NCBI GenBank assembly: GCA_018384745.1
Contig: JAHAYH010000025.1
Location: 1 to 64,000 of the forward strand
Direction: 5' to 3'
DNA from: Caryophanon sp.
GTDB lineage: Bacteria > Bacillota > Bacilli > Bacillales_A > Planococcaceae
DNA length: 64,000 nucleotides
Positions within the stretch are counted from its first letter, which is position 1. Each line of letters begins with the position of its first letter. The translations under genes were made by a program, and so were the position numbers. The notes below the pieces were generated by a model, which was not told where the DNA came from, did no database searches, and saw only the letters and a list, made by a program, of their open reading frames with translations. Of the stretch, positions 38,198-38,995 are shown one piece after another.

Positions 38198-38249
38198 CTA
38201 TTTTGTAATCGCTTTAATATAAGCGCAAAATTTTAAGGAGTGAATGAAG

Positions 38250-38930
38250 TTGTCTAACGAAAAAACATACCCTATGACAATTTTAGGGAAATTAGAAAAA
38301 GAACGTGAAATGGAACAGTTAATTAAAATTAACCGTCCAGAAATCGTCGCACGCATTAAAGAAGCACGTGAGCTAGGCGATTTATCAGAAAACGCTGAGT
38401 ACCATGCAGCGAAGGAAGAGCAATCAATTTTAGAAGGTCGAATCGCGACAATTAACAACATGTTACGCTTCGTTGAAATTATTGACGACACAATTTCTGT
38501 TGAAGAAAAAGAGAAATTAGAAGCGCAATTACAAGAAGCAAACGCAAAAGTAGAGCAATACGTAGCGGGCGTGGAAGAAGCAAAAGCAAACAATGCAAAA
38601 GAAGAAGCGTTATTATTAGAAGAAAAAGTGAAGCTTGAAAAATGGTACGCTGAAAAAGTGCAAGACTTATTAAACACAGTGGAAGTATCAGAAACGAAAA
38701 AATCAAGCGATGATGTAACAATCGGTAAAACTGTAACGTTTATCGAAGTGGGCGAAGACGATGAAGAAGAATACACAATCGTTGGTTCAGCAGAAGCAGA
38801 TCCACTTGAAGGTAAAATTTCAAACGATTCACCAATCGCAAAAGGTTTACTAGGTAAAAAGGTTGGCGACATCGTGAAGATCGCTACTCCTGGTGGCGAC
38901 ATGGAAGTAAAAATTATTAACATTCAATAA
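38250..38930 (+). CDS. greA: Transcription elongation factor GreA with a ~70-residue helical insert
   Basis: 226 residues from TTG 38250, nine bases after AAGGAG and aligning exactly with the usual GreA N-terminus (S-N-E-K-T-Y-P-M-T); ATG 38244 is the alternative, only three bases from the Shine-Dalgarno. GreA rescues backtracked RNA polymerase by stimulating transcript cleavage. Residues 1-80 are the N-terminal coiled coil with the acidic tip [10 protein letters not shown] (about 42-51). About 155-226 are the FKBP-like domain ([30 protein letters not shown]). Between them lie about 70 extra residues (about 81-153), Glu/Lys/Ala/Gln-rich and predicted helical, absent from ordinary 157-160-residue GreA. 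Both junctions are in frame and both domains intact. Confidence 0.93.
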
Positions 38931-38965: not shown

Positions 38966-38995
38966 AAAGAAGCTTGCAGCTGCAAGCTTCTTTTT
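38966..38995 (+). terminator. Perfect 28-bp palindrome after greA, terminator-like
   Basis: Bases 38966-38993 form a perfect palindrome centred on GCAGCTGC, ending in T5. The Shine-Dalgarno of mtnN (AAGGAGG) begins at 38997, so the hairpin overlaps the translation start region of mtnN. Confidence 0.8.

Follow-up and report, generated by a model that had tools for sequence, protein, structure and literature searches.

Gre-type factors of the RNA polymerase secondary channel are short, conservative proteins that dock on the rim helices of the polymerase. In the bound state, the C-terminal domain lies at the rim and the N-terminal coiled coil projects into the secondary channel. One member, GreA (PF03449 + PF01272; NF001263; structures 1grj and 9a7t chain B), has a two-domain length that is fixed in the Bacillota genomes inspected. 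GreB and Gfh1 (2p4v, 2f23, 3aoi) share the same two-domain fold, as does the protein considered here, which is encoded in the genus Caryophanon. This protein resembles GreA in its domains, acidic tip, arrangement and udk-greA-mtnN gene order, but it carries approximately 70 extra residues between the domains, and its N-terminal domain is 56% rather than 87% identical to those of the family (Planococcaceae).

The window analyzed is a 64,000-nucleotide stretch of a 64.5-kb contig from a Caryophanon genome of 2.15 Mb (90% complete), and the features of its greA locus are collected in Table 1. The greA frame is uninterrupted by any internal stop. An in-frame ATG at 38244 would yield 228 aa and lies just 3 nt beyond the AAGGAG ribosome-binding site, whereas a TTG at 38250 would yield 226 aa and lies 9 nt 3′ of it. 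TTG, where the first-pass annotation also placed the start, is the likelier of the two because of its better spacing, and the same (L)SNEK start is seen in the GreA proteins of relatives. Residue numbering throughout refers to the 228-aa frame. The neighboring genes, as read from their open reading frames, are udk (uridine kinase, 37425) and mtnN (39012), an order that is canonical for greA. Since the GreA C-terminal domain (PF01272) has a single match in the 90% complete genome, greA is taken to be single-copy. An antisense frame of 241 codons (38198–38923, minus strand) also spans all of greA and appears to be a shadow frame of the gene.

Table 1. Features of the Caryophanon greA locus (window coordinates; residues in the 228-aa frame).
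Feature	Position	Strand	Basis or remark
Ribosome-binding site of greA, AAGGAG	38235..38240	+	Read in sequence
greA, 228 aa from ATG, stop included	38244..38930	+	Open reading frame, domain matches
N-terminal coiled-coil domain, residues 9–82	38268..38489	+	PF03449 at residues 10–79; model
Acidic tip, residues 44–53, intact	38373..38402	+	Sequence; GDL, EN and EY columns invariant in 25 GreA proteins
Genus-specific insert between both domains, residues 83–153	38490..38702	+	3/3 Caryophanon, 0/257 other matched family genomes
Insert helix 1, residues 86–115, variable	38499..38588	+	Model; identity comparison
Conserved core of insert, residues 116–139	38589..38660	+	Mostly invariant columns in Caryophanon alignment
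Insert helix 2, residues 119–145, better conserved	38598..38678	+	Model; identity comparison
C-terminal domain, residues 154–228	38703..38927	+	PF01272
Terminator-like hairpin, greA-mtnN gap	38966..38993	.	Pattern match only

By every criterion that can be applied computationally, the protein qualifies as GreA. Its matches to both Pfam domains lie far above their cut-offs, GreA_GreB_N with 83.3 bits against 24.5 and GreA_GreB (residues 154–227) with 94.3 bits against 26.9. Curated cut-offs are likewise passed for the GreA equivalog NF001263 (181.6 bits; cut-off 145) and for TIGR01462 (162.6; cut-off 139), and those of the GreA sub-models NF001260, NF001261 and NF001264 are not reached. Identification as GreB was ruled out, as the GreB equivalog models score far under their cut-offs (96 versus 188 and 77 versus 171). 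The acidic tip reads GDLSENAEY, with its Asp and Glu, at residues 45–53. Twenty-five GreA proteins from several phyla share 23 invariant columns, every one of which is retained here, and these include most of the tip. The protein probably functions as a transcript-cleavage factor.

The insert has a high content of Glu, Lys, Ala and Gln, contains no Pro, and was seen in only one of the genera examined. A GreA match was found in 260 of 261 family genomes, and the match is full-length only in the three Caryophanon genomes, in each of which GreA is 228 aa long and the insert is without indels. Identity to the source GreA is 91% in the isolate C. latum DSM 14151 and 83% in the third genome. For the other family genomes listed, the best-matching piece is the C-terminal portion as far as the insert, and alignment is found only outside the insert. 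The first-pass annotation had described two intact domains with some 70 residues between them, and had allowed that these residues might be an assembly artefact or a common trait of the family. Its description is upheld by the Pfam matches and the genus comparison, an artefact is ruled out because GreA is equally long in the isolate C. latum DSM 14151 and in the third genome, and absence from the 257 other matched genomes shows that the insert is not common in the family.

The GreA frames of other family members are mostly 158–180 aa long. Among the matches listed, the maximum is 203 aa, which is due to in-frame upstream sequence. The same explanation disposed of all 12 of the long GreA frames retrieved at family, class and phylum level as potential insert cases. 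No second insert-bearing GreA was seen among the best ~160 matches of class-wide (399) and phylum-wide (398) samples. Within the window, roughly 50 real genes were compared with those of two relatives in the syntenic region, and the next-largest internal insertion was 10 residues, any longer values in this comparison being antisense shadow frames. Such insertion is therefore not typical of the genome as a whole, even though its RNA polymerase does carry insertions (see below). A literature search found no publication describing the GreA insertion, and GreA is missing from the Caryophanon indel table of the one taxonomic survey found (PMC6971209, Table 4).

AlphaFold modeling of Caryophanon GreA, using an input with 25 aligned GreA proteins, gave a mean pLDDT of 90.4 for the whole model. 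The N-terminal domain is predicted to consist of a strand (9–12), two helices (13–43 and 51–75) and a second strand (77–81). For the insert, a beta-capped antiparallel helical hairpin is predicted at high confidence, comprising a strand at 83–85, helices at 86–115 and 119–145 (pLDDT ~95), and a strand at 147–149. When the insert and C-terminal domain are modeled alone, the same hairpin is obtained with less certainty (pTM 0.47). The standard parts of the model superpose on GreA chain 9a7t_B over all 157 residues at 1.2 Å (Z 16.8); for E. coli GreA the value is 1.5 Å. Because these domains superpose normally, the hairpin is predicted to be an addition rather than a spacer that forces the two domains away from each other. 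The helical hairpin foreseen in the first-pass annotation is thereby borne out in the model, and the accompanying proposal, that the insert hinges the factor or alters its reach, is not supported by the normal geometry predicted.

Taken alone, the hairpin has a common shape that also fits unrelated proteins (e.g., 67 residues of sulerythrin at 1.1 Å). Matches to rubrerythrin and ferritin folds were rejected as generic hairpins. The N-terminal arm of HelD (6wvk chain H), likewise a protein of the secondary channel, is a weak match to the insert plus C-terminal domain (Foldseek E 3e-4, TM 0.36, 18 Å). HelD itself is a 770-residue helicase-like protein, and the fold match is too loose to imply kinship. 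For Gfh1, weak collinear matches to the insert plus C-terminal domain (residues 90–227) were observed.

In bound GreA, the junction of the two domains should lie at the outer mouth of the secondary channel, so that the hairpin would stay outside of it, probably as an additional arm at the channel mouth. The reading we favor, to which we assign slightly less than an even chance as a whole, is that the hairpin was gained in the ancestor of Caryophanon and that the product is a working, single-copy transcript-cleavage factor with a genus-specific outer arm by which a contact is added or tuned, cleavage proceeding normally. The normal tip would still enter the channel and stimulate cleavage. The hairpin would most likely touch either the polymerase surface or GreA's own domains; an added contact, as suggested in the first-pass annotation, is possible and may tune binding or residence. 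In this reading, the domains, tip, neighbors, genus-wide retention and selection are read from sequence, the insert's fold and the unaltered geometry of the standard domains are predictions, and the position and role of the arm are inferred.

Selection on the insert was estimated from the three Caryophanon species (Nei-Gojobori), whose synonymous divergence is ~0.4–1.4 by segment. The dN/dS values of the insert in the three pairs are 0.15, 0.37 and 0.24, compared to 0.01–0.02 for the N-terminal domain and 0.05–0.10 for the C-terminal domain. By this measure, and for these three species, which offer few contrasts, the insert is under purifying selection that is weaker than in the remainder of GreA. 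Constraint is also uneven within it. Residues 82–112, on the helix 1 side, share 45–48% identity with the third species, and dN/dS of helix 1 rises to 0.74 in one pairwise comparison. Residues 113–150, on the helix 2 side, share 78–86% identity, and helix 2 holds a 10-residue stretch that is invariant in all three genomes.

These values bear on whether the hairpin has any specific partner. A nearly neutral spacer, tolerated outside of the channel, could account for a dN/dS far above the ~0.01–0.02 of the N-terminal domain and for the simple Glu/Lys/Ala-rich sequence. However, neutrality sits poorly with the long invariant stretch of helix 2, and with an exact length that has been kept in three species despite their synonymous divergence. 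We regard a spacer of this kind as unlikely, at about one chance in four.

The N-terminal domain is abnormally diverged from those of the family. Caryophanon is 56% identical to other family members in this domain, versus 87% among those members; the corresponding values for the C-terminal domain are 73% and 82%. A column was counted as changed if it is ≥80% conserved in the family and has a family-rare residue in all three Caryophanon. Such changes affect 18 of 60 family-conserved columns in the N-terminal domain and 2 of 54 in its C-terminal counterpart (Fisher p 0.0002). Judged from these alignments, far more change has accrued in the active coiled coil than in the C-terminal domain from the time the genus diverged, and, on the dN/dS values given above, the N-terminal domain has been nearly frozen within the genus after that divergence. 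Many of the changed residues, for example those replacing NSEYDSAKEEQ, are residues usual in other phyla. A foreign origin of the domain was considered and rejected as unsupported. Its 74-column tree does not reject the family grouping (p-AU 0.66), and the tree constrained to that grouping had the better score. The search for a close donor turned up none, the best matches being ~57–62% identical.

A rewritten coil raises the question of whether the protein still does what GreA does. Loss or change of the cleavage role, as in Gfh1 or DksA-like factors, with the hairpin serving a new role, would fit the unusual divergence of the active coil, but the protein retains every acidic-tip residue and invariant column, coil dN/dS is 0.01–0.02 within the genus, and the 90% complete genome holds no second PF01272 protein; we consider a changed role very unlikely. 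Alternatively, the hairpin might be an autoinhibitory sheath that lies along the active coil and swings off before channel entry, such that cleavage is regulated. Rewriting of the coil in the very lineage that has the hairpin (18/60 versus 2/54) could reflect a new intramolecular partner, and the GreA relative Gfh1 is known to switch conformations (PMC4598747). On the other hand, the changes are spread along the coil (25–38% per segment) and not confined to one part, and coil plus hairpin superpose poorly on four-helix bundles (~10 Å). A sheath is thus improbable, if less so than a lost or changed cleavage role. A working GreA with an outer arm remains the reading adopted here.

As for where the arm came from, no donor of the insert was found in its own genus, and 61 relatives gave only weak coiled-coil matches. 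Searches of phages, viral contigs and PDB sequences revealed no donor either, and those of Pfam and PHROGs returned only weak coiled-coil matches. An origin within greA itself is a conceivable, though doubtful, explanation that is compatible with an outer arm. The insert would then have arisen as a tandem duplicate of the GreA N-terminal domain that has since degenerated, and the protein would read: active coiled coil 1, coiled coil 2 without an acidic tip, C-terminal domain. The predicted elements have the same order and similar sizes, namely strand-helix(31)-helix(25)-strand in the N-terminal domain and strand-helix(30)-helix(27)-strand in the insert. Local matches are collinear and in register (one 12-residue pair, plus FVEI versus TVEV), and positions 5–151 of the 151 in TIGR01462 can be aligned to residues 87–228, that is, to the insert plus C-terminal domain. 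The turn of the insert reads AKANNAKE, and the DLSENAEY of the acidic tip is absent there.

Against a duplication stand the comparisons with helical controls. In a profile test, the insert ranked 12–37 among 141 sequences, of which 138 were helical controls. With hhalign, the single-sequence rank was 48–59 of 141, and the three inserts together gave E values of 0.077–0.12. The pairwise protein score was equaled by 10 of 138 controls and by 11% of shuffles, and the DNA alignment had a p of 0.44. Pfam recognizes only one N-terminal domain, and the hairpin superposes well on unrelated hairpins such as that of sulerythrin. A global alignment of the insert to the family profile was matched by 8 of 400 shuffles, which are a weaker control than real helices. 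Internal duplication was thus not significant by HMM, profile-profile, pairwise protein or DNA alignment, and, with control and shuffle ranks and p values of roughly 0.07–0.4, it is a suggestion only. A more elaborate version, in which the active copy was re-optimized after tandem duplication of the N-terminal domain and the tipless copy became an RNA polymerase arm outside of the channel, alongside the RpoB and RpoC insertions, is improbable.

The RNA polymerase of the genus has insertions of its own. In RpoC of all three Caryophanon, an insertion of 18 residues rich in Glu and Lys (QLFAELEAKNENERTASE-like) lies a short way before the second zinc motif (IRSAFTC). None of the three relatives compared has this insertion, nor does it appear among the genus-specific indels tabulated in PMC6971209. 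RpoB has an 8-residue insertion around VYQDEEGN, which is an already known Caryophanon signature (PMC6971209, Table 4) and, like the GreA insert, is a genus-specific feature of the transcription machinery. Overall divergence of RpoC is normal (85.6% identity to the family; 85.8% within the family). No compensating change was seen in the rim helices, bridge helix or flanking trigger-loop region, where conservation is normal, which leaves the docking site unchanged and favors the outer-arm reading.

Caryophanon GreA can be regarded as a ready-made insertion experiment on whether anything outside of the channel controls Gre binding or release, and the coiled-coil changes and the insertions in RpoB and RpoC are specific places to look. 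Separately, a 29-residue stretch of RpoC upstream of the rim helices, missing in two family genera, is common to Caryophanon and one other.
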